Of a stretch of DNA of 64,000 nucleotides, positions 26,101-59,539 are shown piece by piece. Below the pieces are notes generated by a model, which was not told the DNA's origin, made no database searches, and was given only the letters and a program-made list of their open reading frames with translations. The stretch is from Closterium sp. NIES-65 (Eukaryota; Streptophyta; Zygnematophyceae; Desmidiales; Closteriaceae). A program made the translations under genes and the position numbers. The stretch covers positions 62,001 through 126,000 of the forward strand of contig CANXME010000897.1 in the NCBI GenBank assembly GCA_948144175.1, in the 5' to 3' direction. Position 1 is the first letter of the stretch. Each line of letters opens with the position of its first letter.

Positions 26101-26961
26101 TGGAGGAGGGAGCTCAGATGTTCTCACTGGGCACTCAGACGCTTCTTGGGTTGACGACCAGGCTACTCAGCGGTCGTCACAGGGTTACACCTTCAGCCTT
26201 GGCTCTGGTTCAGTTTCTAGGCATTCTACTTGCTTGTCTTCTGTTCTCAGCTCCAGTTGTGAGGCTGAGATCTCGCCACAGCCATGGCTGCACAGGAGCT
26301 ACGCTGGCTCACCTACCTGCTGACCGACTTGGGAGAGCGGCCTAGTTCTCCTCCAGTGCTGTACGTCGACAACAAGGTTGTCATTGCCTTGTGTGAGGAG
26401 CACAGACTGGAGCACAGAACGAAGCACATTGCTCTCCGTTACTTCCTGGCTCGAGAGCTGCAGCAGCACGGTCAGCTTCGTCTGCGTTACGTGGCCACTC
26501 AGGCCAACACCGCTGATATATTCACCAAGGCACTTTAGCCTGGTGATCATCAGCGCTTCTGCACTATGCTGGGGCTGGTGCCCACTTTTCCTCACTTACT
26601 GTAGGCTTTGCCTGTACTGTGATCTCTATATATATATACCTGCCTGTTTGCTTTGCTAGGTTGAGATCACCTTGCTGTTTGTGTTGCATATATCCCTCTG
26701 CATGTGAACTGGCCCTGAGGCCCTCTGCTTGTGCTCAGAGTGTGTGGTGACGTTGTGATCCACCCTGAGCTTGTTTGCCTTTCTTGACTGGTCTTGTGAC
26801 CCCTTGCTCTCCCCCACTTTGCCTATGGGGGTGTGTCAAACATCGTATATGTGTTATTGCTGTGTAGGCTATAGTGGGTTAGCCTTTAAGGGGTACACAA
26901 CTCTAGGGTTTCATACTTGTACTCCAATGTTCCATAGTTCAATCACTTCTGGATTCTGATA
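20105..26961 (+). mobile_element. Copia-C LTR retrotransposon, decayed
   Basis: The 5' LTR is 20105-20232 (TGTCAAACAT to TTCTGACA) and the 3' LTR 26834-26961 (ending TTCTGATA, one mutated base). The target duplication is GGGAC (20100-20104 and 26962-26966). The LTRs are 128 bp and differ at five positions, making this the oldest of the four complete plus-strand elements. Primer site TGGTATTAAGAGC starts at 20233. The 3' untranslated region ends CCTATGGGGGTG as in B. Confidence 0.92.
20905..26538 (+). pseudogene. Copia-C gag-pol remnants
   Basis: Gag starts MATPSILTFDAEGRPIKF (20905). A frameshift in the glycine tract (about 21780-21900) moves the reading to another frame, which contains the knuckle-like CGKFHTAQRCFF, protease FTLDSGASRCFF (about 22398) and then a stop at 22821. 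Integrase resumes at 23142 (LQSDRGGEFSSD, PQQNGVAERR). RT is at 24992-26323 with YVDD at 25628-25639, and RNase H finishes at 26284-26538 in yet another frame. At least three frame changes and several stops make it defunct. Confidence 0.88.
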
Positions 26962-32034: not shown

Positions 32035-32977
32035 CTAACCACCACCACCGCCACCAGCACTAGCACCAGCAGCACCAGCAGCGTCAGCAGCAGCAGCAGC
32101 AGCACTAGCACAACCACCACCAGCAGTAGCACCGGCAGCAGCACCACCACCACCACCAGCGCCAGCACTGGAGCTGCTGCTACCAGCAGCACCTGCCTTC
32201 CCTCCCTCTTTCTTCGCCCTAGCAGCAGCCCTAGCTCGGCGCCTCTTCTCTCTCTCCCTCCGCTTCCTCTCCTTCAGGTCAACCCACTTGTACTCCTCTG
32301 GAATGACAAAAGGATCAACAGCCCAATTATCCTCTTTCTCTCCTGCCCCCCCTCCTCCTCCTCCTCCTCCTCCTGCTCCTGCTGATGATGAAGCCCCTTT
32401 TTCCCCAGTGCCCTCCCCGCCACTGCTCCCCCCCTCTCCCCCACCCTTCCTCCTAGCCCATCCAAACCACGACCTCTTCCCTCCTTTTCTCCCACCCTCT
32501 CCTCCCCCTCCTCCTGCTCCTCCTCCTGATCCACCCCCCACATCCCTCTCCGGACTAGCAGTAGGAGTGTGAAACTCGTCTCCCTCCTCCCCACCCTCCT
32601 CCCCATCCCCCTCCTTCCCGCCTCTCCCATTCCGCCCTTTCCCCTCCCCTTCCTCCTCATCCTCCTCGCCCTCCCCATCCCACTCTGCATCCTCCTGAGC
32701 AAGAGCAAAGGCTTCTGGCAGAGGGGCGGGAGCGGCTCTGAACTCCTCGAATTTGGAAAAGGTGACAGACACGCGGACAGTGGGAACAACTGGTATGGCC
32801 ACCTGTAGACAGGGAGGAAGGGGAGACCCGGAGGAGGGGTGTGTGTTTGAGACACCTCAACAGCAGGCTTCTGAAAGAGGTGCGGTCGCAGCTCCAAATA
32901 TTTCCACTTTGGATAGAAGGTGACAGACACATGGACAGTGGAAACCACTGGTATGGCCACCTGTAGACAGGGAGGAG

Positions 32978-33032
<55 letters not shown>

Positions 33033-36000
33033 TTCGTGGGGAGGACGAGGGGAAGGGGAGGGGGAAGGGGGAATGGGATGGGGGTGGGGGAACGGGAGGG
33101 GAAATGGGGAAGTTGCAGAGTGCAAAAGGTGGTAGGAGAGTTGCATCAAGCTGCCTTAAGAAATGGATTTTGGAAAACGTGAGAGACACACAGAAACGTG
33201 AGAGAAACGTGAGGCGCCACTGGACTGGTCACATGTCTGTCGACATGTAGGAGGAGAAGACCGGGAGATGGGTTGGATATTGAGATGGGGATGGGGGAGG
33301 GGGGCTGGGGCTACACACACGTGGACAGTAGGCAGCACGAGCGGAAGAAAGCATTTTGGGTCGGGATTCTAATCGACAAAAGAAATGGCTGGTAGTCAGA
33401 GTGGGGGGTGGAAGGAAAGGGGAATAAGGCCGAGGTGAAAGGGAAGCGGGAGGGAAAGGGGGAGGGGGGGAAGTGGGGAGGGCGAAAGCAGGCCATGCAC
33501 CGCGCCTATACATGTTTTGAGACGTCTCAAAACATCTCTTTTATCGGGTGGGGAGGGCGAAAGCGGGCCATGCACCGCGCCTATACATCCCAAAACCCAT
33601 AGCGTCCATTCACCATGGCCCATTCCCACCAGCAGCACCCAGCAGCACCCACCTCACGGGCACCATCCCCGGTGGCAATTTCATGGTGAGAAATTCCTTC
33701 AACCGCTGCACCGCCTTCACTCGGTTCGATAGCAGGTCCAGCAGCGGCAGCAACTCCTTCATATCCAGAGGGAAATCCCTCGTCATCCACAGCACAGGTA
33801 CCGACCAGCACCGACAAGCACCCAGCAGCACCTTCCATCACCAACCATCACCTACCTTCACAGGGACCATCCCTGGGGGCAGCTTCATCGTAAGTAGCTC
33901 TTTCAACCGCTGCACCGCCTTCACTCGGTTTGAGAGAAGATCTAGCAGCGGCAGTAGCTCCTTCATATCCAGAGGAAAATCCCTCGTCATCCACAGCACA
34001 GGCTTCAGCCCCCGCCGATACTCACTCTCCCCTTCCTTCTCCGCGTATTCCTCCCCCTCTACCCCTCCCTCCCCCCCTCCCCCGCCCTGGCCGCTTCTCC
34101 CCGTGCTTCTCCCCTCGCCCTTCTCTCGTTTGCTGCCTTTCCCCGCACCCCCCTCCTCGTCCCTGCTGTCTCTCTCGCGGTCTGAGAAGCTTCGTGAGAG
34201 TTTTCTTTCCAGCTGCCGCTTGCTCTCTTTGGACTCTTCTTGCAACTCACTGTCACTCTCCACCTCCCTCTCCTCGCCTCCCATCCCCCCTCCCCCCCCC
34301 TCCCCCTCCTCCTCTCCCTCCCCCCCCTCCGCCTTCATTGTTTTTCCGCCTGGAAAACCAGCCTCCCCTTTTAGACCCCTCTGCACTCCCATCCTTTTCC
34401 TCATCCTTCTGCTTCTCCTTTTTCTTCTTGTCCTTATCCTTTTTTCCCCCCAACCACCCTCTCCTTCCCCCCCCATCCTCCTCCACCTCCCTCCCTGCAC
34501 TTGCCTCACTTTCCCCTCCCCTCTCCTTCCCCTTCCCACCTGCCTTTGAGCCCTTCCCTCCCTCAATCTGCTTCTCCCGCTCCTCCTGCCTCCCCTCCTC
34601 CCCCTCCTCGTCCTCCTCCTCCCCCATCCCTTCCACCTGAGCCAAAGCAGCTTTCAGCTGAGCCCTTTCCTCCTCTGTCAGTATACCGTTATAATCCTCC
34701 TCTTCCTCCTCCACTATCCCCTCTCCCCCCTCCCCTCCCTCGCCCTCCTCCTCCGCCGCTCCCTTCCCAGCATCCCCACCCTTCCCCTCCTTCCCCTCCT
34801 TCTCCTTCCCACCACTCCCCTTCTCCCCTCCCGCTTTCACCTCCTCTTTCCCTTTCCCTCCTTTCCCACCCCCTTTCCCACCACCCTTCCCTCCTCCATC
34901 CTCCCCTTCCTTCCCACTCCCCCCTTTCCCCGCTCCGCCCCTCCCCTTGACCTTCCCAGCCCCTTCCCCTAAAAACTCCTCATCTGTCATCGCGCCAGGC
35001 ACCTGTCTCGATCGAAACATGAAATGCACGTGCTGCATCTCATAAAGCATTGCCCTGTGCCCCGCAACTGTCTCCACCTTAGGCAACCCCCGCCAGGACA
35101 ACACCTGAGAGAGCTCCGCTTGCGAAACATCGATCCCCGCCTTGTACACGTTCGTCATGAACAGCGACTGCACCTCTGCTTTTAATTCGGCGTCGGTGGG
35201 AATCGAACCCGCGGCTTCAAGAGCGTCAAACGCCTCCTTGCGCTCGTGCTTCAGCACCAGCAGGGTGCCGGCTTTCAGCTTCCCATCTGGGCTGGGAGCG
35301 CCCATGAAGATCAGGCTCTGTGGCTTGCGCTTCACCCTGATGGAGGGAGCGATGCGGGGCGGGGAGGGGAGCAAGGATCCGATTCTTAGGTGCCTGAGAC
35401 ACAGGCTAGGCTAGGCTGGGAGCGCCCATGAAGATCAGGCTCTGTGGCTTGCGCTTCACCCTGGGGGGGGGAACGAAGGGAAGAGGAGGTGGGAAGGGGG
35501 GGAGAGGGTGAGGGGGGGGGGGGAGAAAGGATCTGGTTTTGGATCGCCGCAAAGACAGGATGGGAGCGCCCCTGAAGATCAGATCATGTGGCTTGCGCCT
35601 TGCGCTTCACCCTGGGGGTGGGAGAAGAGGTGGGGTGGGGGGAGTGGGGAGGGGAGGGAAGAGAGCGGGGAAGGGAGGGAAGGGTGGGAAAGAGCAGGGA
35701 TCAGTGTTGAGGCGCCTCAAAAGAAGGCAGGGCTGCCATGAAGATCAGGCTCTGTGGCTAGCGCTTCACCCAGCGGGGGAGTGAGACGAGGCGGCGGCGG
35801 GGGAGGTGGGGAGGAGAAGGAGCAGCAGCTAGATTTTACCAGCTCAACAGACACACAAACCTGAACCCGTCGAACCCCGCCAGGCCAGGGTCATGTCAGC
35901 CCTGAGCCGGGGTCCACGCTTCCAGATGCGGTAGGTGTCGCTGGGAGCGATTCTCGAGACGAAGGGAATGACGGAGGACTCAAAGGACCACGCGACCTCC

Positions 36001-37680
36001 ATGTAGAAGTCACGCACGCATGCTTGCAGTCGCAGAACCAGCCTCAATAGCAGCCTCAGTACCAGCTTTGGAACAGCCTCGGAACTTACCTGAGAGCTAG
36101 CTTTGGAACCAGAGCCAACACAGGCTCGGAACTAGCCTTGATGAGCTAGAATCAATCAAGCAGCTGAGCACACATACCTGAATCCATCAAAGCCTGCAAG
36201 AGTCATGTCGGCTCTGAGCCTTGGCCCGCGCTTCCAAATCCGGTAGGTGTCGCTGGGAGCGATCCTCGAGACGAAGGGGATGACGGAGGACTCGAAGGAC
36301 CACGTGACCTCCATGTAAAAGTCGCGCATGCGCGTGAGGATGGCTGCGAGGGCGGGCAGGCGGCGCATGTAGCGCGCCCACACCTGCACCCCACTGTGGC
36401 GCAGGATGGCCGTGGCTATGACCTCGTCCCGCGTGCACACCGCCTCCTGGATGGCCGTCCAGCCGCCTCCGTTCTGGGAGGAGGGGAGGGGAGGGGAAGG
36501 GGAGTGGGCGGGCGGGGAAATGGGAAGGAGAGGGGGAAGGGGGAAGGGGAAGGAGAAAGGGGGACGGGGAAGGGAAAAAAGGGGAAGGGGAAAGGGGGAA
36601 GGGGAAGGGGTGGAACAGAGGGTAATTCTGAGTGAGGTGAAATAGGCGCTGCTGGTTTTTGCGTCGACTCAAAAGTCAGTTCTGAGTGAGGTGAAATAGG
36701 CGCTGCTGGTTTTTGAGTCGACTCAAAAGTCAGTTCTGAGTGAGGTGAAATAGACGCTGCTGGTTGGGAGAGGTGGGCGGGCAGGCGGCGGATGTGTCGC
36801 ACCCACACCTGCCCGCCGCTGCGGCGCAGGATGGCTATAACCTTAAATAACCATCTCCCGTTCTAACCAATCCGTATCATTGCTAGTCAATGGTGCTTGC
36901 ATTGCATGACAGACAGATAGAGCAGAAGCGCTTGCTCACCGCTTGTGAGACACCCACCCCCCTACCCCCCCCCCCCCCCTTCCCCCCCCCCGACATCCCA
37001 ACATTCCATCAACCCCCTGACCCCGACCGAACCCTCCTTGCCCCCATCCCTTGGTCCCATCCCTCCCCATCCTTCCCCCTCCTCCCCTTTTCCCCCTTTT
37101 CCTCCTTTTTCCCCCTTCCCCCACTTCCCCCCGGCCCAAGCAGCACACGTGTCATCCCAGCATCATCCCACCAACACCAGCGGCGCACCTGGAGGCTGAC
37201 GTCAGCGCCAGCCTGGACCAATAGCTCCACGGCGGCCCTATCACCGAGCCGCACCGCCAGGCACAGCGGCGACTCCTTGTGCGGCACGTCGCGCCGATCC
37301 AGCGTGCGCTGCGCCACGTCAGCCTGGACCTCCGCAGCCAATGACTGCTCCTCGGTCTTGATACTCCCCGGAATCGGCGGGCGCGGGACCGACGCGAGAA
37401 TGCGCCTTAAAGCGTGGTAATCGCGCTGCAGGATCGCCGTGTGGATGGGGCTGTGAGAATAGTCCTGGATATTAATATTCGCGACGGCGCGCACCGTCGC
37501 GGCGGCGAGCGCCTCGGTCGACATGGAGCTGCCGGAAGAGCCCCCGCAGTGATTGGCGCCGGGTTTTGCGGCGGCGACGCGATTCGAAGTGTGAGACGCA
37601 CGGGGATGATCCGAATTAGTAGCCGCCGCATTGGCCGCTGTTGGCGTAGGCTGCGGAGGGGGGTCTTCGGAAAGAGGCAT
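32035..37680 (-). CDS. ANKRD13-like ankyrin repeat / GPCR-chaperone domain protein
   Basis: Four exons are joined by GT-AG junctions with matching phases: 37189-37680, 36178-36473, 33856-35336 and 32035-32802 (TAG). Exon 1 carries ankyrin motifs (SHSPIHTAILQRDYHALR; SPLCLAVRLGDRAAVELL). Exon 2 has the GPCR-chaperone (PF11904) core: MRDFYMEVTWSFESSVIP and APSDTYRIWKRGPRLRAD. Exon 3 has ADMTLA..., PQSLIFMG, RQVPGAMTDEE, ILTEEERAQLKAAL and RGLKPVLWMTRDFPL. Exon 4 has VAIPVVPTVRVSVTFSKF and DPFVIPEEYKWVDLKERK. The order matches plant ANKRD13 proteins, which are related to animal ANKRD13 ubiquitin-binding/ER chaperone proteins. At about 1010 aa it is longer than the roughly 600-aa plant homologues because of Gly/Glu-rich inserts. 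A one-base frame shift lies in G-runs near 34280-34330. The start at 37680 is the first in-frame ATG; a later ATG near 37521 is possible. Confidence 0.85.
32803..33855 (-). repeat. ANKRD13-like intron 3 with ghost exon ends and microsatellite
   Basis: 33657-33805 is a partial copy of the last ~145 bases of exon 3, including a donor-like GTGGGT; it encodes LWMTRDFPLDMKELLPLL. 32864-32966 copies the first ~100 bases of exon 4 with its acceptor. Fainter echoes occur at 33155-33225 and 33300-33350. A (TG)n run occupies about 32979-33030, and a TTTTGAG/CTCAAAA palindrome lies at 33512-33535. Confidence 0.75.
35337..36177 (-). repeat. ANKRD13-like intron 2 with four ghost exon ends
   Basis: 35857-36018 copies the end of exon 2 (RDFYMEVAWSFESSVIP and IWKRGPRLRADMTLA) including the junction. 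35416-35472, 35560-35616 and 35733-35775 each copy the first bases of exon 3 (minus-strand reading of GGTGAAGCGCAAGCCACAG) with the acceptor. Palindromic or near-palindromic seams lie at 35385-35398 and 35707-35720. Confidence 0.78.
36474..37188 (-). repeat. ANKRD13-like intron 1 with repeated units
   Basis: A unit TTCTGAGTGAGGTGAAATAG plus GCGCTGCTGG occurs three times (36626-36765), separated by TTTTGAGTCGACTCAAAA-type palindromes (36656-36674, 36711-36728). 36777-36840 echoes an internal part of exon 2 (RRLP...LRR...ILRH region). Long C-runs lie near 36960-36990. Confidence 0.7.
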
Positions 37681-38839
37681 GGCTGCTACCGCGGAATGGC
37701 TGATGTTGAAGCAACCAAAGCAGAACTACACGTAGGATTACACGAGTTGGGTTGACGAAACTGGTTCTGTCGTCGTCGCCTGGTCAGGCGACGGTCGGCC
37801 GTCGCCTCGATTTTTCGCCTTTCGTATGTCTGATACTCCTACTACATAATTCACAGAGCTAGAGACAGCAGAGCGGTAAGGCGAGTAGCTGACAAATTAT
37901 GACGGATAAAAATGTAGCGGTAACGCTAACGGTCGAAACGTCACGTCACGTTGACTTCTCAGGACATTTCACCCAGCCCTGGCCCTGGAACGCAACCGCA
38001 ATTATCGCATCGCAACGCAAGCTTCCTCTAACTTCCTCCCCCTCGCAGTCTAAAACTACAACGGAGATCACGCCCGTGATTGCGCGAAACGCGGGAGCAA
38101 AGCAAGGCGGAAACGGTGCAGCAAAGCAAGTAGGTAAGAGTCAGACACGTCAGTTCAGTCAGTGTGGGATGGAATGGAAGTGCCAGCAACTTACAGGACG
38201 GGACAGGTCACTCAGGGAGTCAGGATTCACAAGTCACGACACGGGAGTCTAGGCTGCGACTGATGCTGAACAGTGTGCTGATAAAGAGGCGTCCAAGCCA
38301 AGCCATGTGTGGACTTAAATTCACACACTTTACCACGGTTTTTAGTTCGTTTTCTTGCGGTCTGACGTGGTAGCATGCAGCTACCATGGTTCACCATTTG
38401 GAAACGTGCTGAACCGCACTGTACGATCACTGCAACCAACGCGCACAACCACCCCGTGACGTGCTGGAGCCCACAGGCCTACAAATATTCGAAATATTGG
38501 GCAAGCACCCTTCGAAAATAGTATAGCACCGTACACCTATGTCCTTTACTTTTTACACGAAATATCCTTCAAGACTCTTCTTCAGCAAGCTTCACAATCA
38601 CAAGAGAGGACAGTGCCAAGAGCATTCAATTGATGGTTTTTCTAAACCACTTGAACAAGCACTGAGAGTATATGGTACTTCAAGATAAACCGAGTCCCTA
38701 TCACATCCTCCACACCAGGTATCAGTCATACGCCCATGTCATGGCCCACTAAAAAAACCGGATCGCCATGTACTGTAACAAACCACTGTTTCAAACCCCG
38801 TATGCTCTGCCCAATCCCCTAATACCCTCCCCTCCACCA
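37681..38839. other. Intergenic between TPLATE 3' end and the ANKRD13-like start
   Basis: About 1.16 kb. It should hold the TPLATE 3' untranslated region and the promoter of the downstream gene. No TATA box or further gene could be recognised with confidence. Confidence 0.45.
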
Positions 38840-41006
38840 CTACGAAATCACCAGCTTCTGCTGCTCCCTCAGCGCATTCCACTCCTGCAGCACCGCCAGC
38901 TGGAGCGCATGCTCCTCCTCGGGAATCACCGGGATTTCCGGTGCCTCCTCTCCCTCAGCAGGCGCGGGTTCAAACATGCCGGGTAGGGGGATGCTCTTGG
39001 AGGCGGGGCGCACGGCGGAGCTGAGGAGCTCGAGAGACTCGTCGTGGCGCTTCTTCTTTGTGGCTGTGAACGCTGCTAGCTCCTCCTCACTCACTGCCCG
39101 TATGGCCCCGCCTGGGGATGGCGGGATGGCGAGGGGTGAGAATGTGTGTGTGTACGGGAGGGCCGGGAGGAGGGGAAGGAGGGGAAGGAGGGAATTGGGG
39201 GAGGGGGGAAGGAGAGTGGGAGCAAGGATGAGATGGTTTGGTGGGACTGTGTGGTCATCCAGCCTTCACTGGACAGCGGAGGAAATCCCCAAAACCACTT
39301 CTCTCTCGTCCCAACTAATTAAGCGCAGCAGCACAAAGCACAAAGGATTGGGAGTGAAATCATGAGGAGCAGGAGTAACAAAGGAATGGCATGTAAGAGC
39401 CAAGCACTCGGTACCTGTGAGGTCATTCAGCCACTCCTGGGGCCCAGCTAGGATCTCATTGACAACGTGTGGAGAAAGGAGGAGAAAGGATCATGCGCAC
39501 GACCCTTCAGAGAGCAGCGTGCGAGGACCAAACCAAGCCAAGCATAACTGCGAACCAATCAGGACTGCTTTACCTGTGAGGTCATCCAGCCACACCTGCG
39601 GGGCCGCTAGGATCTCGTTGACGACGCGGGGGGAGGAGGAGCGCAGCACAGACGACCAACCTAGTGCACTCTCACCAACACAGTGGGTCGAATGTAGGGA
39701 CCAGACCAGGCCGCACGCGTACCTGTGAGGTCATCGAGCCACTCCTGGGGGGCCGCTAGGATCTCGTTGACGACGTGTGGGGATGAGGAGCGCAGCACGA
39801 AGCGGCAGAACATGGTGGTGGAGTCGGCTGCAAAGCCGCCGTCGCTCGCAATGTCACTCGTGCCGAACACTATTATGGCCAGCGTGTCTCCGAACCATGT
39901 CTTGGCCGCATAGAACACCTGGGGAGGTGGGGGGGAGCGGAGAGGGGGAAAAGAGGAGGGGGACAGGGAGAATGAGCGGCCTTTAAGGTACCTATAGTGC
40001 GGAACACCGGGGGAGGGAGCGAGGCAAGGCAGCAAGCGAGCAGGGCTGGGAAGGTGCGTGTGGGGAGGAGGAGCGCAGCACGAAGCGGCAGAACATGGTG
40101 GTGGAGTCGGCTGCAAAGCCGCCGTCGCTCGCAATGTCACTCGTGCCGAACACTATGATGGCCAGCGTGTCTCCGAACCATGTCTTGGCCGCATAGAACA
40201 CCTCGGAGAGAGGAAGCGGGGAGAAGGGTAGTGGAGGGGAGGAGGGAGGGTCAATGGTGTGAGCAAGACTGTGGACACATACCTATTACCTGGAAGCCTC
40301 AACACACCACCAGCACACATGCACACATACCTGGAAGCCCGCACGATTGCTGATGAGATGCGTGGCGACTTTGAAAACAGGGCGAGAGTCAATGGCGCGC
40401 AGCCCTGCTAGCAGCCTTCACCCAAGTACAGAGCCTCAACACACACCACGCCCACACGCCACCCGCACACACATACCTGGAAGCATCAACACACCACCAG
40501 CACACATGCACACATACCTGGGAGCCTCAACACACCACCAGCACACATGCACACATACCTGGAAGCATCAACACACCACCAGCACACATGCACACATACC
40601 TGGAAGCATCAACACACCACCAGCACACATGCACACATACCTGGAAGCATCAACACACCACCAGCACACATGCACACATACCTGGGAGCCTCAACACACC
40701 ACCAGCACACATGCACCAGGGAGCCTGCGCGGCTGCGTTTTTTCTAGTCGACTCAAAAGTCCGCGCGGCTGCGGGTGAGATGTGAGGCGATTCTGAAGAC
40801 GGGACGAGAGTCAATGCCACGCAGCCCTGCGAGCTACCTGCGGATGCCCACGAGAACACTGCCAAGTGTAACCCTCTCAGGCCTTGCCATACCACCACTT
40901 TCACTTCACACTTTCTCTGTAATACACCAAAACCTGTCATCACGTAGTGAGTGAATCCCACGCGCGCCGTTTATGAAATCCACGCAGCATTCACCCAGGT
41001 ACAGAG

Positions 41007-41071
<65 letters not shown>

Positions 41072-44000
41072 GCCCACACACCACCACCCACACACACACA
41101 TGTATACTTGGAAGCCCGCACGGCTGCGAATGAGATGCGAGGCGACTTTGAAGACGGGGCGAGAGTCAATAGCGCGCAGCCCTGCTAGCAGCCTTCACCC
41201 ACGTACAGAGCCTCAACACACACCACCCGCATGTACCTGGAAGCCCGCACGACTGCGGATGAGATGCGAGGCGACTTTGAAAACAGGGCGTGAGTCAATG
41301 GCGCGCAGCCCTGCGAGCAGCCTCCTGATGCCGACGTCGTCGGAGGAGAGGACGAGCGAGGAGTGCGTTGAGTCGTAGAGGTAGGCGCCTGTGTGCTCAC
41401 CCACTGCTGGCAGGCTTGGTAGCACTCGGAAGAACTCCACTGGCGAGCACCTGAGGATGGGGAGGGGAGAAGGAGGGGGAGAGGGAGAGGGAGAGGGAGA
41501 AGAGGGGGGAGGGGAGGGAGGAAGAAAAGGGGAAGGACGGGTGGGGGTTGGATGGGAGGGGGACGGATGACGTGTGAGAGGGTAAGAAGGGACATGAGCC
41601 TGGAAGGGAAGGGGGGCGGAGGGGGGGGGACGGAGGGTACAAGAGGAGTGTGTTGAATTGTAGAGGTAGGTTCCTGTGTGCTTGCCCACTGCTGGCAGGC
41701 TGGGCAGCACTCAAAAACTGTCTCACATGAACACGCACCCAACCACCCACCCACCCACCCACCCACCCACACGCATCTGTGCGGTCTGTAAGCGGCACAC
41801 GGTAGGGCACACACCGCAGCCTTACACACGCAGGTATTGAGGCACCTCAAAACATGTCTCACAGGCGCACACGCCCACCCACCCACACGCACCTGTATGG
41901 CACGAGCAGGTCAGTAAGCGGCACACGGTACGGCACACACCGCAGCCTCACAGGCGGCCGCACAGGCCCACTCGCCGCACCCCCTTCCCCCTCACTCCCA
42001 CTCGTCCTCCTCCTCCTCCCCAACCCCCCAATCCCACCTCCTCCTCCCCCTCCCCCCTCCTCATCCTCCAAACTCAGCCTAGTTATATCCGCTATCCCTG
42101 CTCCTGCTCCTCCTCCCCCGGGGCTATTATGTGAGGAGCGGCGGTTGTTGGTGGAGCGGGGGCCAGGGAGAGTGCCGTGATAGAAGAGCATGTGGAGCTG
42201 CAAGGCGTTGCGCTGGAAGCGGGTCACAGAGACTGTCACGTCGGAATATATCGGCTCCTGTGAGGGGAGGGAGACGTAGTGAGCAGAGCCGCGGGAGAGC
42301 AGTGAGAAGGCATGGGAAGAGATAGAAGAGCATGTGGAGCTGCAAGGCGTTGCGCTGGAAGCGGGTCACAGAGACTTTCACATCTGAGTACATTGGCTCT
42401 TGTGAGGGAAGGGGTGTGGTGGAGAGGGGAGAGCGGTGGGAGAGCGGTGGGAGAGAGAATAGGTCGAGCTGCACGAGCATGTGGAGCTGTAAGGCGTTGC
42501 GCTGAAAGCGGGTCACAGAGACTGTGACGTGACGTCCGAATCGATAGGCTCTTGTGAGGGAACGGCGATGATTGGGAGAGCTGTGAGCAAGAAAAAAACA
42601 CGGGAAAAGGATAGGAGAGCGGGGGCCAGGCGGGAGCCAGGAAGAGGGCCTTGATAGAAGAGCATGTGGCGCAGCAAGGCGCTGCGCTGAAAGCGGGTCA
42701 CGTCGAAATGTGTTGGCTCCTGTGAAAGGTGGGGAGTAGAATAGTGAAAGCGCTGGGGAAGAGAGCATGAGCAGAGATGTGAGGAGCGTATGGAGCAGCA
42801 GGAGAGCAGCAGGAGAGCAGCAGGGGAGTTGAGAGAGTGGCATCCAAGCTACTGGGCTGGGGAGATTACTGCTGCACTACTCTCCTGTGGCTAACAGTCC
42901 TCCCAGCTTGCAGCCACACGTGCCGTGCTCACGTCCCCCTTTCCCCTTCCATTCCCCACCCCTGTAGCACCACCATTGGCTTGTGACAGTCGACCCAACA
43001 CAACGAGAAAAGCACAAGCCCACCTGTGGCTGCAAGCGGTTTAGTTAGACGGCGAGTGGCGCGAGGCGCCCCATCCATGAATATGATATTTGAGTCGACT
43101 CAAAAATCATCCATGAATATGAGAGCACCCAGCAGCCCCACATGCACGTCCCTCCTCCCCCCTCCCCCCTCTCCCTCCCCCTAGCACCACGGATGATTTC
43201 TGAGTCATTCAGAGGGAACAAGCTCACCTGTGGCTGCAAGCGGTTGAGCCTGCGAGTGGCCCGAGGCACCCCATCCATGAATCTCAGAGCACCCAGCAGC
43301 CCCACGTGCACGTCCACCCGCGGCAGCACCACCTCTGTCATATTTAGCACCTGATGGGAGTGGTATGTATGGGAGGAGGGGCAGCAGTAGGAGAGACGAG
43401 TTAACAGTGTTTGACTGAACTTTGAACCCTAAAAGACACCTTTGGGAGCACCCAGCAGATCCCAGCAGCCCCATGTGCACGTCCCCCCGCGGTAGCACCA
43501 CTTCCGCTATGTTCAACACCTGGTACGAGTGGTATGTAGGGGACGAGAGAAGGGGGAAGGACAGAACTGTTTGAATTCTAGAGGTAACCCCCAGCCCCTA
43601 GAATCCCCAGCAGACGACTTTTGAGACGTCTCAAAAGTCGTCTAGAGGTAACCCCCAGCCCCTAGAATCCCCAGCAGACGACTTTTGAGACGTCTCAAAA
43701 GTCGTCTAGAGGTAACCCCCAGCCCCTAGAATCCCCAGCAGACGACTTTTGAGACGTCTCAAAAGTCGTCTAGAGGTAACCCCCAGCCCCTAGAATCCCC
43801 AGCAGCAATACCCCGGCATGCATGCACCCTCTCTCACCTTCACGCTCACAGTCACCCTCCTCTCTGTCATGGCCGACAGATGAAACACCTCAACATACGC
43901 CAAGTCACTGCACTGCTGTTCCCCCTCACTCTATTCCCACTGGCGCAAAAACCTCCTACCGTCCGGACTTTTAAGGCACCTAAACACAACTCACCTTCAC

Positions 44001-47000
44001 GCTCACAGTCACCCTCCTCTCCGTCATCGCCGACACATCAAATGCCTCAACATACGCCAAGTAACTGCACTGCTCCTTGTGATGCTAGTCGCCACTGGCG
44101 CCAACACCTACCTACCTACCATCTGAACTAATGAGGCACCTGAGAGAAACTGACCTTCACACTGAGAGTAACCCGCCTCTCATTCATGGCTGACAGATGA
44201 AACGCCTCAACATACGCCAAGTCACTGCTCCCAGTAATACTAATCGCGGCCGGCGCCGAAACCTGCCGCCCCGCCGCAATCCCTGACGAAGCACCCGCAA
44301 TCCCCGCCATGCCTCCTCCGGGGATTAAAGCCGGGTCGAGCCCTTGGTCCTCCTGCTGCTGCTGCAGCTGCCTCTGTAGCAGCTCGTCAGGAGAGGCGGA
44401 CGGGGCTGAGAGGTCCGAGACGGCGGATTTAACGAGGGACTCGAGCTTCCGGTCCTGCGCTGCGGCTGCGCTGTTGTAGAGGACTGAGAGGCGGTGGTGC
44501 GAGAAGGGGTACTCGCCCGTTGCTCCCATGCGCACTGCCCACCTGTGGAGGGGGGAACGGGGAGCAGGGAAGGGGAGGGAGAGAGGGAGTGACAGGAGAA
44601 AAGGGAGCGCGGAGAAACGGCAGAGGGGCGAAAGGGAGAGGTCTGAGACAAGGGACTCGAGCTTCCGGTCCTGCGCTGCTGCTCTGTTGTAGAGGACGGA
44701 TAGGCGATGGTGGGAGAAGGGGTACTCGCCCGTTGCTCCCATGCGCACTGCCCACCTGTGGATGAGGGGTGGGGAGAAGAGGTGGCGGGAGAGATAGAGG
44801 GTGAGTGGAAGAGAGCGAGGGGGGGGGAGTGGGAGGGGGGAGTGAGCGTGGAGAGGGGGAATGAGAGAGGAGAGAGAGGGTGCGGAAGGAGGTATTGACA
44901 TGGAAAGGAAAGGAGTAGAAAGCAGGTCCCACCAGATGTGTGCACTGAACCACATACGTGGTGCACCATATACGAAGCTGTGTCGCATACCCACACACCC
45001 CAAGCCAACCCATCCTCCCAATCCATCTCTGAGGCGCCTCAAAAACACACCAGACGTACTCACACTCCACATATCCCCCCAGGATATGGTGCACATAAGC
45101 CAGGGACTGCATAATACTGAGACAACCCTTCTCCCAAACACCTCAAAACCCCCCTTCGCCCAACACCCTCACACTTTCCTCTCGCCCCCCAGCAGCACCA
45201 CTCACGTGCGGTCGGGGAAGTGGTGCACATAAGCCAGAGACTGCAGGATGCTGCGGCAGCGGTGGCGAGTGGCACTATCCACGAGCCCTGGCGCCGACTG
45301 CAACTCCTCCACCTCCCGACACACCAGCGCTGCTGCCCTGAAGCTCCTCGCGCCCAGATGCAGCGCGCACACCAGAATCGCCTGCACCTCCTGCAACCGG
45401 TTCCCACTCATCGCCACCGCTGCCGCACCCCCTCCTCCCCCTCCTCCGCCTCCCCCGTCCCCAGCAACCACGTCCGCGAGCATGGTTCCGGTGGCGTCGT
45501 CGGGAGAAAAGAGGATGCGGTGGAAGAGGGAGGTGAGGATGGTGACTGGGTCTTTTGGGTCGTCTGGGAAGAGAGGCTCTGGGCCTGAGAAGGACATGTG
45601 CTCCGCTAGCACCCATAGGAGCCGCACGCGCAGGGTGGAGGAGGAGAGCTGCGGTGTGATTGAAGAGGGTTGGGAAGAGGAAGGGAAGTGGGAAGGTTGA
45701 GTGAAGGAAGGGGAGGAGAGAGAGGCTCCGGGCCTGCGAAGGACTTTTGCTCCGCTAGCACCCACAGGAGCCGCACGCGCAGGGTGGAGGAGGAGAGCTG
45801 GAGTGTAACGGGGTGGGGGAATAGGGCGGGGGAGAGTGGGGCAGTGGAAGGTTTAGTGAAGAGAGGGGAGGAGAGAGGGGGTCCAGGGCCTGAGTATTAC
45901 AGGTGTTCCAAGTTGGTTTTTGATTTTTTTTCAAAAACAAACTATTTTGAAAAGCCAACCGGGCCTGAGAAATACAGGTGTTGCATGCCAAACCAGAGGA
46001 GACGCAGTCGCAGGGTGGAAGAGGAGAGCTGTGATGCACGGGGATTGGCGGGAGATGGGGAGGAAGCTCTCGACCGCTCTCAACCCCATCCCAACCCACC
46101 TCTTTTGCGTCTTCCAGTAGCTGTCTCTGCAGCGTGTACAGTCGCTGCTCCGCCCGAATCTGCTCCGGAGTAGCCCCATCCTTGGCACTCTTCACCCCGC
46201 TCGCAGTGTTATACACTTGGCACAGCCGCACCAGCAGCCGAAGGTAACAGTCCACAGCATACGTCCGCCCGCCACACTGCCACCGCACGCACGCCCTACA
46301 CACCTCCACCACCTCTAGTGCCGTCTGCCCCCACGCCTCCCACCCTCCAGATGAAGCCTCCCCGGATACCACTGCTGCTAGGGACCCCCCTCTGCCTGCC
46401 GCGGCAGCAGCAAAGGAGAACCCAGCTCCTGACTCCGCGCCGTAGCCTTCTATACCTCCCCCGCCGAACCCTCCTGCTAACCCGCTCCCCATGCCTCCCG
46501 CGCCCCCCGCTCCCCCTGCGCCGAACCCTCCCCCGCCTGCGCCTGCCCCGCCTGCTCCTCCGCCTACTCCCCCGCCCCCGCTCCCACTCGCCAGCTGAAA
46601 CGCACTCTCTACCAAACACGCCAGAAGCTCCTCTCTAAACAGCCCACTATCAACGTTCGGCACTACTGGCAGCGCCAGTTCGTCTTTAATCTGCGGGTCG
46701 TCAAAGAGGGAAGAGACGTCCGTGCCTGCGACGGGTCTCTGGCCCCTGCGCGCCGATTCCTTTGAGAAAAGATCCACGCAGAGAGCAGCGCGGCAGATGC
46801 TCGCTAGGGCAACCATACGATCCGCTTCGGCTCTCAACCCTCGGACCATCAGCAACAGCCGTTTGAAGAGTGCCGCCTGCGTGTGTATGTCCAGGAGAGG
46901 GAGGTTCGACACCACGGCTTTAACTATCGCCTCTCGTCCCGCTGAGTACTCCTGCCGATCCCACAACGAGAGGAACGCAGTCACAGGCCCGGTCGCCCAC

Positions 47001-47235
47001 TCCGGTTTCCCCCCAGGCACGGCCGCGAGAGCGAGAATCTGCAAGCCCACTTCGAAGACTATGGATGGGTCTAGAGAGGCGAGGTACGGTGAGAGGTGCG
47101 TGACTATATCTGCCACGCCGAGCATGCGCTCTGTGTTCACCAGGTCTTTCCGCTCCTCTGCGGCTGCTGCGGCTGTTTCTGACGACACCGTCGTAGCGAG
47201 TGCAGTGGAGGACGAGGAGGAGCGACGTGATCCCA

Positions 47236-47280
<45 letters not shown>

Positions 47281-48454
47281 CCTCCTCCTTGCCCTTTCCA
47301 TTCCTGCTGTCTCTCTTTGATCCTCCTCCTCCTCCTCCTCCTGCTGACGATGCTTTCTTGTCCTTGCCCATTCTCTTTGCGTCCTTCCCGTCCCCTTTTT
47401 CTTTGCCAGAGCCACTATCGGCAACAGAATCTCCCAGAGCAAGCCCGCCAATCCCGCCCAACCCACTACTTTCGCCCTCTCCTCCTCTCCCCCCGCCAAC
47501 ACCGCCGAAATCCCCCAGGCCTAGCAAATCATCCCCGAATCCACCTAAACCGGTGCCACCATCACCGGTAGCACCCACGGAAACGGCGCTGCTTCGTCTC
47601 CTCCTCGCGCCTTCTTCCTTAGGATTCAACATCATTCTCAGATCATCTACCAGCCCCGTCGCAAACGCCCGCGCGGCGTAGGCAAGCGGATAGATCGACG
47701 AGCGGAACGCTTCTGGAGTGAGTAACCCCGCACGCGCGATTAGCATGTCCCGCTTCCCCCAGACTAGCCCGGTCAGCGCAACCACCAGCTGCGCGCGCAC
47801 CGCGGCGGAAGATTCCGTCGGAACGAGCCGTTGCGCCGCGATTCTGCTCATTTTTTTCGTGGCGAATTCTGAAAATAGACGGCCCACGGCGTCGAAAGCT
47901 GCGGCTGCGACTATATCGGAAGGGTCTAACATCGAAAGGCCGATCTGGCGCCACCAGAGCGAGACGCGGTCTAGGAGGGAAACGGACTGCGCACAGAGAT
48001 TAATTACGTCGTCGCGTAGGAGAAGCGTTCCGAGGGAGTCCATCGCGGCTTGTCTTAATCCCACGTGGTCGTGGACGATGCAGTTAGAGAGCTCCTTAGA
48101 GTGATCATCTAGGAACTTCCCGACCCGCCAGCCCGGAAGCGCGACGACGAAGCGCAGCGCGGCAGCGGTGACGTCAGGATCCGGGCAGCTGAAATCATTG
48201 TGCATGCCCCGGCACACCACGTCCCAGTCGTCGTCCGTTAAGTGGCCCGCGGTGCGGAGAGCATCGTACGCGAGCTGCTTACTAACGGCGTTTGCGCTGC
48301 CGGCGATTAACTCCGTGCAGAGAAGCGACGCGAGACACGATACGTCCTTACCGCCGGCTGCTAACTGCAAGGCGACTAGGATGGCGGACGTCTGCCGGCT
48401 GACGTCGTTAGATATTATGTCGCCGCGAATGGCTTGAAATATGACCTGATCCAT
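38840..48454 (-). CDS. TPLATE: TPLATE, large adaptor subunit of the TPLATE (TSET) endocytic complex
   Basis: Eight exons with consistent phases and GT-AG ends: 46100-48454, 45206-45648, 44155-44542, 43228-43350, 41893-42257, 41237-41450, 39723-39918 and 38840-39111 (TAG). Together they encode about 1451 residues, against roughly 1180 in Arabidopsis. Exon 1 holds the adaptin-like helical solenoid (SNDVSRQTSAILVALQ; DPDVTAAALRFVVALPGW; SLLDRVSLWWRQIGLSML; GREAIVKAVV) with inserted Gly/Ser/Lys-rich tracts. Later exons hold LQEVQAILVCALHLGAR, TGEYPFSHHRLSVLYN, SDLAYVEAFHLSAMNERR, VDVHVGLLGALRFMDG, CVPYRVPLTDLLVPY, SPVEFFRVLPSLPAV, FYAAKTWFGDTLAIIVFG and the C-terminal HALQLAVLQEWNALRE. These match TPLATE in order. 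The protein acts at the plasma membrane in clathrin-mediated endocytosis. The start is the first ATG of the conserved N-terminus. Confidence 0.92.
39112..39722 (-). repeat. TPLATE intron 7 with two ghost copies of the exon 7 end
   Basis: 39412-39475 and 39571-39648 each repeat the last ~60 bases of exon 7 with the donor (plus-strand reading CCTGTGAGGTCATYCAGCCA). The true junction is at 39718-39723. The copies are diverged and stop partway into the exon. Confidence 0.75.
39919..41236 (-). repeat. TPLATE intron 6 with ghost exon ends and a splice-donor minisatellite
   Basis: 40063-40202 is a nearly identical copy of most of exon 7 with its acceptor; I see one silent change in about 135 bases. 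Copies of the exon 6 end with donor lie at about 40330-40430, 40758-40840 and 41104-41195. Between them are a 41-bp tandem array (40470-40716) and a (CA)n run (41011-41070). Confidence 0.78.
40470..40716 (-). repeat. 41-bp minisatellite containing the exon 6 splice donor
   Basis: Six tandem units begin at 40470, 40511, 40552, 40593, 40634 and 40675. Each contains, on the minus strand, GCTTCCAG|GTATGTGTG (or GCTCCCAG|GTATGTGTG), matching the end of exon 6 (GGCTTCCAG|GTAC). The rest of the unit is CA-rich (plus strand). Confidence 0.8.
41451..41892 (-). repeat. TPLATE intron 5 with ghost copies of both flanking exons
   Basis: 41640-41715 copies part of exon 6 (LPSLPAVGKHTGTYLYNST). 41766-41830 copies the end of exon 5 (PYRVPLTD region) with its donor. 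A palindromic seam ATTGAGGCACCTCAAAA is at 41836-41852, next to a short CCCA tandem. Confidence 0.75.
42258..43227 (-). repeat. TPLATE intron 4 with ghost exon ends
   Basis: Three copies of the start of exon 5 with acceptor lie at about 42320-42405, 42470-42560 and 42655-42725 (each encodes VTRFQRNALQLHML or a close variant). A copy of the end of exon 4 with donor is at 43020-43085, and its seam palindrome is at 43084-43109. Confidence 0.78.
43351..44154 (-). repeat. TPLATE intron 3 with ghost exon ends
   Basis: 43836-43905 and 43990-44068 copy the end of exon 3 with donor; they read YVE(V/A)FHLSAMTERRVTVSVK and a close relative. 43440-43522 copies the start of exon 4 (LNIAEVVLPRGDVHMGLLG). 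Near-palindromic seams are at 43967-43985 and 44131-44145. Confidence 0.78.
43579..43805. repeat. 64-bp tandem repeat with a perfect 32-bp palindrome in each unit
   Basis: The unit CTAGAGGTAACCCCCAGCCC, then CTAGAATCCCCAGCAGA, repeats with period 64. The joints at 43612-43643, 43676-43707 and 43740-43771 are perfect palindromes: half-site AGACGACTTTTGAGAC followed by its reverse complement. The units appear identical. Confidence 0.9.
44543..45205 (-). repeat. TPLATE intron 2 with ghost copies of both flanking exons
   Basis: 44640-44760 copies the first ~115 bases of exon 3 with acceptor, with five silent changes, one replacement and one in-frame codon deletion. 45057-45118 copies the end of exon 2 (QSLAYVHH) with a donor. 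A TGAGGCGCCTCA palindrome lies at 45030-45041. Confidence 0.78.
45649..46099 (-). repeat. TPLATE intron 1 with two ghost copies of the exon 2 start
   Basis: 45721-45800 and 45955-46031 repeat the first ~80 bases of exon 2 (SSTLRVRLLWVLAE) with acceptor-like AG. A hairpin-like A/T-rich stretch (45912-45958) sits at the seam. Confidence 0.75.
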
Positions 48455-50161: not shown

Positions 50162-53100
50162 ATGGCGACTCCGCGAGTTCTTCGTTTCTACGCTGACGGT
50201 AGACCCCTTGACTTTTCCGTCTGGCTTCTTCGCGCTCGCCGTCTGTTAGAGAGTCAGGTCCAGGGGGGCGAGACCCTCTGGTCACACGCTACTGGTGACC
50301 TCCCTGAGCCCCCCGAGCCTACAGCTTTAGGCCCTGCTCCTGACGACGCTGCTACGGCTCGCTTTGCCCGTCAGCGCGCTGACCGGACGGCTTGGACGTC
50401 GCGTGACGCTGCGGCCTGCATCGCACTCAGCAGCCTCCTCCCTGAGTCCGAGGAGGTCCACTTTACTCAGGTTCGCACCGCTGCTGCGTACCTCACTGCG
50501 ATTAAGGCCCGCTACTCTACTCCCGCTACTGTCTCTCTTGGCCGTCTTTTCCTCCCGTTCCTGTTTCCTGATCTTGCCTCGTTTGAGCGCTCTGCTGACT
50601 TGATCGCTCACCTCCGCTCGCTCGACGCTAGTTACCGCGCTGCTTGCACTGAGGCACAGCTTACACTGCTTCCTCCCCCCATGGCGATCACTGTCTATTT
50701 CATCGCCACTAGCCTCCCTGACCGCCTTGCCTCCGTTCGTGACGCGCTTCTGCTGAAGCAACCTAGTGAGCTGACTATCGAGGTCCTTGAGTCTGCACTC
50801 AAGGACGTCGAGAGCAACCTTCGTTCGGTAGCTGCCGCCTCTGGTACTGTGTCCCCCCCACTCTTCCACGGGTGCACAGTCCCGCAGTTACCCACCTTCA
50901 CTGCCTCTCTTGCCACTGCCGCTACTGACGCGACTGCGGCTGCTGTTACGACTGCGTCGCGGTCCCGCGGCAGGGGGGGCAAGAAAGGTGGTTCTGGTGG
51001 AGGTGGAGGCGGAGGTAGCGGAGGTAGTGGGGGTGCTGTTGCGACTGGGGGTGGTGGGAGTGCAGCGTCTGGAGAGACCCCTCGTGCAGCGGCTGGTGAC
51101 TCCACTGCACCTGCTGGTGGCGGCGACCCCCGAGCTCGTCAGTCGCCTCCTGTACTGCCGGCCCCGCTAGGTGGAGCAGCGGCGTGGTACCAGGCTCAGC
51201 GTCAGCAGCACCTTCAGCAGCAGCAGCAGCCCCTTTCCTCCCAGCAGCCTCAGCAGCAGCAGCGTCAGCAGCTGGCTCCGGGGTCGGGGCTGCGTCAGCC
51301 CCAGCGCGGTGCGGCTTACCCTCCCTGCCCCTACCAGGTTCAGACAGGTCCTCGTCGGGGCCACCCTTGTGGCCGCTTTCACCCCCCTGGTCAGTGCTTT
51401 GCTCAGCTCACTGACACGGTCCGGTTGACCTACGGGGTTGGCGGTCCTGCTCCTGACTGGCTTCCTCTGGTTCAGCGCTACGGCTTCGCTCTGTGGGGCA
51501 TGTCTGCTGAGCAGTTAGTTGATCTGATTAGTGCTCCTCATGCTATGTATCCTGTTGTTGACTCTAGTGTTTCTGACTCTGTTTACTCTGGTGTTGTTAG
51601 CTTAGGTGCTAGTCTTGCTCAGTTGCCTGTTGCTAGTGTAGGTACTTGTGTAGACTCTAGACCAGCGACTACCTCAGGGGACGCTTCGCTGTCGTTCACA
51701 CTGGACTCTGGAGCCTCCCACTGCTTCTTCCGGGACAGCACGACACTTACACCACTTCCTGCGCCTGTTTCTGTAGCGTTGGGTGATCCCACTACGGGAC
51801 CAGTCACTGCCCGTCACACTACCACTTTACCGTGTCCTGCTGCTCCCTCCGGGTCTCTCACTGGGTTTCACGTCCCCTCGTTCTCCCGGAACTTGGTGGG
51901 CGTGCGACCCCTCGTGAGTCAGCACGTGGGTGTGTGGTTTGAGCCTTCTGGAGAGACTGCGGTGTGTGTTGACGGAGACTCTTACCAGCCTCTTGCTACC
52001 TTTACTGCTGAGCCGGGCTCGGGTCTCTACACTCTTCACACTGGCCCGCGTGCGCCGCAGCAGCAGCCGCAGCAGCAGCAGCAGCCGCAGCCGCAGCAGC
52101 AGCAGCAGCAGCACCAGCGGCCGCACCAGCAGCCCCCCCTACTGCCACTGCCCCCGGTTCCCCCCCCCGTTCGGGTCCCCGTGTCTCACCAGGTTGCTTC
52201 GTCCCCCCAGGTGTCTGTGTCGTGTCAGGTTCCTTCGTCTGCTCCAGTCGCTGCGTCGTGCTCCTGCCGGTCGCTTGCCCACCCCACCGTTCTGTGGCAC
52301 CACCGGATGGGGCACCCGTCCCTTCCTTGTCTGCGCGCTATGTCTAGTCAGCATCTTGTCCTAGGCCTCCCACGTGTCTTGCCGTCGCTGCCGCCTTCGC
52401 TTGCGCCGCCGTGTCGTCCCTGCGTCGAGGGTAGGCTGCGCGCCACCCCTCACTCCTCCTCCCTTCGTCCGGCCACCGAGCCTTTTGAGACGCTTCACTT
52501 GGACGTCTGGGGCCCCGCCCCTCGTCTAGGCCCTGAGCGTGAGCGTTACTTTCTGGTGGTCGTTGACGACTTCTCCCGCTACACCACAGTGTTCCCACTG
52601 GCGAAGAAGTCTGAGGTGACTTCTACGCTGATCAGGTGGTTGCTCACCACCGAGGACACTCGTGGTCGTCGTGTCAGCTGTCTCCACTCCGACCGTGGGG
52701 GTGAGTTTCGCTCCGGCATTCTCGCTGGATTCTGTCGCGAGCAGGGCATTTGTCAGTCCTGGACGCTTCCAGAGTCCCCACAGCAGAATGAGGTTGCTGA
52801 GCGCCGCATAGGCCTGGTCATGGAGATCGCCCGCACCTCCCTGACTCACGCCTGTGCCCCCCATTTTCTGTGGCCCTACGCGGTCAGGTACGCCGCGCAC
52901 CAGCTGAACCTCTGGCCACGTGTCTCTCGACCAGAGGTTTCACCGACCAGTCTTTGGACAGGGTCCCCTGGTGTTGCGTCGCGGTTTCGTGTCTGGGGGT
53001 GCTTGGCTCTTGTCCGCGACACCTCCGCGGACAAGCTCTCGCCTCGTGCCGTCCCCTGTGTCTTCCTTGGTTTCCCTGAGGACTCCTCTGACTTCACCTT

Positions 53101-56100: not shown

Positions 56101-56146
56101 TTGTGTGCAGTTAGGCCTTGTTGACACAGGTTCTAGTCATGTGTAG
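50162..56146 (+). pseudogene. Copia-D gag-pol polyprotein, one premature stop
   Basis: ATG 50162 (MATPRVLRFYADGRPLDF) is preferred over the in-frame 50126 because sister elements start MATPS. One frame of 1995 codons runs to TAG 56144, with a single TGA at 55025-55027 where sisters have Arg (LRRPVYGLRQ). The order is gag, C...GHPCGRFHPPGQC (about 51330-51400), protease FTLDSGASHCFF (about 51695), integrase LHLDVWGPAP / HSDRGGEF / PQQNEVAERR, a Gly/Ala/Ser/Gln-rich linker (53360-53950), RT and RNase H (GHCDSSYADD, TADIFTKALP). The catalytic box reads YVED (55169-55180) where the sisters have YVDD, and integrase has E for G in PQQNG. Confidence 0.92.
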
Positions 56147-56508
56147 ACTTGAGTTTATTGCCTGCTTCGTCTGTACACTTGCTATATATACTTGTGATCT
56201 CTTGGACTGGCCTTGTGGCCACTGTTGCTTGTGCTCAGAGTGTGTGGTGACGTTGTGATCCACCCTGAGCTTTGTTTTCTTTTGGACTGGTCTTGTGACC
56301 GTACTCTTTTTGATTTTGCTAGACACCCCTCACTTAGGCTATGGGGGTGTGTCAAATGTTGTAGCCTGTAGTGAGGTTTGTCTTAGGGGGTACAGAAGTT
56401 AGGGTTTGTCATATGTACCCCAACCAACATCAATGGACACACCATTCCTCATTCTGACATTATAGACCAAACGCCTAAAAACTTCAACTTGCCCGCCACA
56501 AAATCTAA

Positions 56509-56656
56509 GGGCGTCTTCCTACGGCCTCATATCAGGAACCCTCGTATCAAGAATGTTGTTTTTGCCTGGTAAAACTAGCGAGAGGTTTTGGGTTTAGGGG
56601 AATTTCTGTGTGAGCCTGATACGAGGTTATCTTGATACGAGGATAGGAACACGCTC
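56509..56656. mobile_element. Tourist-like MITE
   Basis: The ends GGGCGTCTTCCTA and TAGGAACACGCTC are inverted repeats that extend, imperfectly, into CTCRTATCA. The 3-bp TAA on both sides (56506-56508, 56657-56659) fits the PIF/Harbinger target duplication. It is 148 bp with no ORF. Confidence 0.6.
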
Positions 56657-56659
56657 TAA

Positions 56660-59528: not shown

Positions 59529-59539
59529 GAGATGAGGTG

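Follow-up and report, generated by a model that had tools for sequence, protein, structure and literature searches.

Introduction

Cut-and-paste elements generate target duplications of fixed length; long interspersed nuclear elements (LINEs) generate target duplications of variable length together with an element body, and their two-sided variant, twin priming, gives inverted joints. Introns can also change by tandem genomic duplication, in which a short tandem duplication arises near a splice site and leaves the mRNA unchanged, and in plants the repair of paired nicks turns staggered breaks into tandem duplicates that are tens to hundreds of bases long. Here we compare these systems with a stretch of 64,000 nucleotides (nt) from the alga Closterium sp. 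NIES-65 (contig CANXME010000897.1, here C896, positions 62,001 to 126,000; below called the window, in whose own numbering plain coordinates are given). Two of its genes, TPLATE and an ANKRD13-like gene, carry in their introns partial copies of their own exons, which we call ghosts, and an 18-nt palindrome, TTTTGAG-N4-CTCAAAA, stands between duplicated pieces. The ghosts are real and occur in several genes of this one contig; the link of the palindrome with duplications is the new and more novel part of the finding, and it suggests that small duplications are made here by a route not yet described.

Introners offer a likeness in algal and protist introns, since they too are numerous, short inverted-repeat elements with target duplications (PMC9860276; PMC7789003). 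The characterized Introners are themselves introns and have duplications of 3-9 base pairs (bp; PMC9860276), and the introner elements of Amoebophrya have direct repeats of 3-5 nt (PMC7789003). The present case differs in its 18-nt palindrome and in its duplications of 11 to 137 nt; moreover, the palindromes of the window sit within larger introns, and the splice sites of these are those of the exons. In the titles and abstract openings listed from the open-licence literature we found no description of the palindrome sequence, of ghost-type partial exon duplication or of a link between the two.

Ghost Exon Ends in the Introns of Two Genes

To find ghosts, we compared the exons of TPLATE and the ANKRD13-like gene by blastn with the ten introns of these two genes (E≤0.01). 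Among 32 rows, 27 were kept (E values 4.6e-7 to 5e-72); five weak ones were dropped, four of them from a non-neighbouring exon and one (24 nt) from a neighbour. Ghosts are present in all ten introns, just as a preliminary description of the sequence had claimed, and every one of the 27 derives from an exon flanking its intron. Nineteen matches reach the exon border, and the other eight end before it. Neither the end of the first TPLATE exon (T1) nor the start of the eighth (T8) has a ghost at this threshold. Border-reaching ghosts usually retain the splicing signals: copied exon ends are followed by GT, and copied exon starts are preceded by a pyrimidine tract and an intact or decayed AG. Beyond the border the intron is far less similar in most of 26 exon-ghost pairs, including some that are 98% identical in their exonic part; in the ghosts of the ends of exons T3 and T6 the likeness extends into the intron.

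All seven introns that contain both kinds of ghost show one order: those from the end of the upstream exon precede, adjoining that exon, and those from the start of the downstream exon follow. This order argues for separate local duplications, because introns concatenated from two haplotypes would give the opposite one. It is also among the reasons why we consider it highly improbable that the assembly has interleaved two haplotypes or homeologues, as the preliminary description had allowed. Such an artefact would agree with the high silent divergence between the copies and with the occurrence in these strains of gene copies with a silent divergence (Ks) of about 0.35, at which within-strain duplicates peak (PMC10407611). 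The same source reports that Closterium cultures are haploid and that NIES-64, NIES-65, NIES-4550 and NIES-4552 were assembled with Canu from PacBio reads, which for the assemblies of similar size have an N50 of 28-30 kb and would span these genes whole (PMC10407611). An artefact is also at odds with a further gene of the contig, spread over our loci L009 and L010, in which one exon start occurs in five copies, the presumed exon included. Finally, a genome search with the ghost of the end of exon A2, the second of the ANKRD13-like gene, gave among the best candidates scored only this ghost and the true exon, and thus neither a third copy nor the intact second gene copy that the preliminary description had envisaged. 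A real process is the better reading.

A Short Palindrome Abundant in the Genome

Between 32803 and 46099, seven perfect palindromes reach at least 14 nt and contain more than two kinds of base; every one of them is of a single family, TTGAG-N4-CTCAA. The window's two other palindromes of this grade have a different sequence. With up to three mismatches allowed, 13 palindrome-like sites lie in introns of the window, distributed over eight of the ten, and none in exons. In a 264-kb set made up of the window and loci L003-L022 (L001-L002 were excluded as repeats of the window), we counted 69 cores TTTTGAG-N4-CTCAAAA with up to three mismatches, where mononucleotide shuffles gave an expectation of 3.6. 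The centres of the 20 perfect cores are ACGT (7), TCGA (4), AATT (3), GCGC (3), TCGC (2) and TCAA (1), so that 17 of 20 are self-complementary, and among spacings of up to 400 nt between TTTTGAG and CTCAAAA that of 4 nt alone is enriched. Over the whole genome the subtype with an RCGY centre is found at 11,264 exact places, a count swollen by arrays, and its reversed control at none. A prokaryote collection of 257 billion bases contains 27 stretches with the palindrome, and virus contigs contain three. At L003:6263, at L036:1501 and at 43612-43643 of the window the palindrome arms are longer by locus-specific sequence, about 7-15 nt per side.

A perfect inverted repeat, high copy number and location in introns would equally be displayed by a family of Introners or of DNA transposons resembling miniature inverted-repeat transposable elements (MITEs); the palindrome arms in the window are perfect over up to 16 nt, and terminal inverted repeats are common to the present case and to MITEs or cut-and-paste elements. 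We nevertheless regard the insertion of such elements as an unlikely explanation. The insert barely exceeds its own inverted repeat, and the flanking duplications vary from 11 to 137 nt instead of being constant, as opposed to the 3-9 bp given for previously characterized Introner families (PMC9860276).

Association of the Palindrome With Duplications

A direct repeat spans the core within 300 nt at 53 of the 69 cores of the 264-kb set, as compared with 83 of 345 random positions. Repeats were said to abut when they lay within 20 nt on both sides, and the control positions on C896 were placed 150-900 nt away. On C896, 15 of the 20 perfect cores have abutting direct repeats versus 9 of 264 controls; on a second contig, C6, it is 13 of 22 cores versus 15 of 113 controls, the C6 repeats being 28-137 nt long. 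Direct repeats of 11 to 105 nt flank 23 of the 44 cores with up to two mismatches. Within the window, where palindromes were not assigned a strand, the palindrome ATGTTTTGAGACGTCTCAAAACAT (33512-33535, intron A3) has a 31-nt direct repeat on each side, 1 and 25 nt away; two palindromes of intron A1 (at 36657 and 36711, together 36657-36728) lie between direct repeats of 31-36 nt; and in an array of 64-nt units (43577-43805) the palindromes at 43619, 43683 and 43747 stand between identical copies. The clearest single case is L011:6645-6784, where a stretch ending at GT is followed by the palindrome and then by the same stretch again; over 16 codons, in a coding frame that we deduced, all five differences between these copies are silent. 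At L028:1501 and L030:1501 the arrangement is copy-palindrome-copy, with no palindrome directly after the second copy. As for the ghosts, the spacer between exon and ghost or between two ghosts contains a whole or decayed palindrome in 11 of 27 cases at p<0.05, six of them clear. A causal role of the palindrome for some ghosts is likely, though not proven.

Several observations weigh against such a role. At p<0.05 no palindrome was detected in 16 of the 27 ghost spacers, five of the 11 that bear one are far decayed and individually weak, and ghost ends are no nearer to palindromes than random intron positions are. By the criteria used, an abutting repeat is lacking at five of the 20 perfect C896 cores and at nine of the 22 on C6. 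The cores counted are not independent events, because several are units of tandem arrays; likewise, of 50 listed genome places, 32 lie within 200 nt of another and leave 27 separate spots, the clustering by which the genome count is swollen. The duplications also vary in length, unlike those of known cut-and-paste elements. It is possible, if doubtful, that ordinary replication slippage or break repair makes the duplications and that the palindrome is a passenger, or a pre-existing hairpin that provokes slippage. The palindrome-free spacers and the position of the ghost ends agree with this, as do the palindrome-free local repeats that are common in the neighbourhood and the tandem arrays with a palindrome in every unit (43577-43805 and L031). 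Slippage accounts less readily for the single copy-palindrome-copy sites at L028:1501 and L030:1501, which fit insertion, since duplication of an existing palindrome should copy it too; and constant arms at thousands of places require a common source.

Divergence Between Ghosts and Exons

Taken together, the 27 ghosts differ from their exons in 209 codons, 136 of them silently. Over 683 codons the Nei-Gojobori method puts the silent changes at 152.7 (523.6 sites) and the replacements at 78.3 (about 1525 sites), which corresponds to a divergence of 0.29 per silent site against 0.05 per replacement site and to a ratio of replacement to silent divergence (dN/dS) of about 0.14, not near 1. The most silent ghosts are that of the A2 end (35852-36019; 20 of 22 changed codons, dS 1.14, dN 0.017, with a frameshifting insertion of 5 nt), that of the A3 end (33643-33798; 17 of 18, dS 0.87, dN 0.009, with a 1-nt deletion), one in a kinase gene of the same contig (3795-3664, not in the window's numbering; 12 of 13), the T6 ghost beginning at 41194 (8 of 8) and that of the T3 start (44648-44762; 6 of 6, with a 3-nt deletion); in the first two dN/dS is below 0.02. 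The hand counts of the preliminary description were identical for the A3 end and roughly similar for the A2 end (13 of 14 silent); for the T3 start its deletion and the mostly silent change were recovered, and its count of five silent changes and one replacement became six and none. It had also taken the copies to be coding-like as well as derived from neighbouring exons. The derivation stands for all 27, and the coding-like character does not extend to several that look neutral, such as the T5 ghost 42701-42630 (2 of 8 silent) and the A3 ghost 35598-35558 (0 of 4).

Two simple models were rejected. Neutral copies beside a fixed exon would show 58 silent codons at random, compared to the 136 observed, which bears out the earlier judgement that the ghosts are too silent for plain neutral duplicates. 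A neutral ghost combined with silent change in a constrained exon lineage would show 91 (z 6.3); this second model suits many single ghosts and fails (P<0.005 each) for the five most silent ones named above.

Coding selection on the ghosts themselves, as alternative exons or as remnants of a second gene version, would account for the low dN/dS, both overall and in the ghosts of the A2 and A3 ends, and descent from a second, selected coding version interleaved with the first was what the preliminary description had proposed. This seems to us very unlikely. All 27 ghosts are partial exons, in contrast to alternative or mutually exclusive exons, which would be complete, keep their frame and have a splice site at either end; up to three parallel copies occur at one exon start; and of ten gap events, eight have a length that is not a multiple of three (two of these, in the T2 ghost beginning at 46031, offset each other). 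The ghost residues are deviant at conserved sites as well. For TPLATE we compared with other proteins 51 ghost-exon amino-acid differences, among which two are stops and a codon differing in two ghosts counts twice: the protein of strain Yama58-4 has the exon residue at 48 and the ghost residue at three. Strain NIES-53 agrees with the exon at 34, with the ghost at one and with neither at two; the moss TPLATE at 24, none and 23, respectively; and that of a fern at 21, one and 25. Together with the gaps, these deviant residues show that the ghosts are decaying, so that the replacement rate (about 5%) gauges ghost age and the silent surplus must lie on the side of the exon.

Differences that separate the exon from at least two ghosts are silent in 17 cases and replacing in five, and those private to one ghost in 28 and 34 (Fisher p 0.013). 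In the kinase exon Kb, compared with its own ghost, the first 27 nt contain seven of eight silent changes and resemble a conversion tract, and among the three T6 ghosts and their exon all four combinations occur at two silent sites (CTC/CTA and CCT/CCC); both are signs of exchange. From these comparisons we infer that exons may have been replaced by diverged alleles after the ghosts had formed, although a ghost copied from an allele other than the present exon would fit the silent excess as well.

A Possible Route From Break to Palindrome

We lean, with limited assurance, towards an explanation in which the ghosts are decaying local duplications, part of them formed through insertion of the palindrome, and the silent excess reflects later replacement of the exon by a diverged allele. 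The duplications, each of some 30 to 200 bases, would at times happen to span a splice site; the copied exon margin would then stay harmless in the intron because splicing would keep using the outer, complete exon, and a duplicate wholly within an exon would alter the protein and therefore not persist. Part of the duplications, perhaps four in ten, would arise as the palindrome enters, with the target DNA ending up copied on both sides. Replacement of exons could result from recombination if the population is hybrid or highly diverse; in the hybrid strain NIES-4550, sequences of different origin are reported to have recombined (PMC10407611).

From the copies, their decay, the abundance of the palindrome and its position between direct repeats, all of them observed, we infer its entry by insertion at a staggered break. 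A copy-palindrome-copy site with no second palindrome, as at L028 and L030, is the form expected from such an insertion followed by fill-in, and constant arms around a mostly self-complementary centre suggest that one short sequence is added to both 3' ends, which pair via the centre. Tentatively, both 3' ends of the break would be extended by TTTTGAGNN from one template and anneal through the centre (ACGT, GCGC, TCGA or AATT, mostly self-complementary), and fill-in would then double the stagger; abortive, two-sided, template-directed extension would produce such ends. The longer locus-specific arms at L003:6263, L036:1501 and 43612-43643 are not accounted for by a simple tailing model.

So conceived, the process resembles in some respects an insertion of the LINE type or one made by break repair, which is a likeness rather than an assignment to any of these classes. 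Target duplications of variable length are shared with target-primed reverse transcription and twin priming of LINEs, from which the present case differs in having only about nine bases per side and no visible element body. Plant paired-nick repair gives duplicates of like size, and the constant palindromic filler found here is not known to be part of that description. With tandem genomic duplication the ghosts share a short duplication by a splice site without change to the mRNA; the differences are that existing introns are here enlarged beside their own splice sites, with no new intron shown, and that some of the joints bear a constant palindrome. Conceivably, then, we are dealing with a new class of tiny insertion, in which a template-directed tail TTTTGAGNN on both ends of a staggered break, mainly in or near genes, would leave an 18-nt palindrome between duplicates of tens to more than 100 bases; at thousands of places in the genome of one alga it would continually copy exon ends into introns, and the copies would record older exon alleles.

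Introns that gather spare exon ends with working-looking splice sites would offer raw material for alternative splicing, and the same sites would be a trap for gene prediction. A palindrome that stands between duplicated flanks at a large part of the sites studied would provide a dated record of the origin of small duplications and of intron growth in the lineage sister to land plants, with the ghosts as fossils of alleles that the exons once carried.

Ghosts in Other Genes and Probably on a Second Contig

The kinase gene (recognised by Pfam), at the start of C896, has ghosts in all three intron stretches examined. At L003:4190-4475 there is a tandem array of units of about 27 nt made of the start of kinase exon Kc and its acceptor site. 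The fourth gene, across L009 and L010 and already mentioned for its five-fold exon start, contains copies of SLWDYTHVVMNYLVG and VLYVGDHIFGDIL; it may resemble a cytosolic 5'-nucleotidase.

An annotation-free test, in which local repeat pairs were scored for coding-like divergence at p<0.05, found 21 such pairs among 191 on C896: the window's gene part accounts for 9 (of 28 there) and the ten loci L013-L022 for 3 (of 67). On C6, nine loci chosen around palindromes gave 17 of 74, some of them counted twice as L029 and L030 overlap, and ghosts are probably present on this second contig too. Two results run counter to a general occurrence: none of ten local pairs in L004 and L005 (C896) is coding-like, and no local repeat pair at all was obtained from L007 or from L006, which contains a UEV-domain gene, so that ghosts are not found in every gene region. 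Tandem arrays with units of about 62 nt were seen at three places of C896 (L012:8049-9999 continuing into L013:1-1181; L016:6097-7269; L017:5842-7073).

Positions of the Remaining Ghosts

All ghosts of the two genes lie on the minus strand. In TPLATE, intron 1 has two ghosts of the T2 start (46031-45961 and 45806-45719), and intron 2 has, besides the T3-start ghost described above, one of the T2 end that stops 15 nt short of the border (45087-45119). Two ghosts of the T3 end (44112-43988 and 43911-43833) have a decayed palindrome in each spacer (44129 and 43969) and are accompanied by a ghost of the T4 start (43461-43522). Of the two further T4 ghosts, from the middle (43151-43108) and the end (43082-43014) of the exon, a palindrome at 43088-43105 lies in between; three ghosts of the T5 start follow (42701-42630, 42560-42475 and 42408-42321). 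A ghost near the T5 end (41826-41783) is separated from its exon by a palindrome at 41835-41852, and another lies near the T6 start (41643-41712). Three ghosts of the T6 end (41194-41105, 40852-40757 and 40417-40328) precede one of the T7 start (40057-40206), which is 98% identical over 150 nt, has its own polypyrimidine tract and a decayed palindrome at 39981 in its spacer. Two ghosts of the T7 end (39649-39571 and 39475-39411) complete the TPLATE series.

In the ANKRD13-like gene there is a ghost of the middle of A2 (36775-36835). Three ghosts of the A3 start (35771-35736, 35598-35558 and 35463-35411) occur with a palindrome at 35705 and decayed ones at 35537 and 35383, and between a ghost of the A4 start (32970-32865) and its exon lies a decayed palindrome (32845-32862).

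Gene Models and Genomic Context

C896 measures 1.18 Mb in a Closterium genome of 874 Mb and 2400 contigs; mean intron length is given as 485-554 bp for Closterium (PMC10407611). The TPLATE model (38840-48454, minus strand), built by tblastn with proteins P0004 and P0001, splice sites and the open frame, comprises eight exons and 1451 amino acids with a single, terminal stop: T1 (48454-46100), T2 (45648-45206), T3 (44542-44155), T4 (43350-43228), T5 (42257-41893), T6 (41450-41237), T7 (39918-39723) and T8 (39111-38840). Proteins of the Closterium strains NIES-53, NIES-67 and Yama58-4 are 96-99% identical to the window's TPLATE exon. The ANKRD13-like gene (32035-37680, minus strand; Pfam ANKRD13_C, tblastn with P0008) has four exons, A1 (37680-37189), A2 (36473-36178), A3 (35336-33856, incomplete) and A4 (32802-32035). 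Its model is incomplete because the frame of A3 breaks inside low-complexity sequence (34030-34300), by an intron or an error that the model lacks.

Gene prediction seems to have had trouble in these TPLATE introns. The annotated TPLATE of NIES-67 (P0002, CLOP_g725) departs from the TPLATE sequence past exon 2 and gains a PF08423 domain, which we take to be Rad51, and that of NIES-53 (P0001) seems to run into intron 5.

Related long repeats, with a mutual identity of about 68-93% and in both orientations, surround the two genes (8374-15493, 20103-26959 and 51695-62667) and look like transposable elements. The sole palindrome-like match inside them lies at 57054 and has three mismatches.

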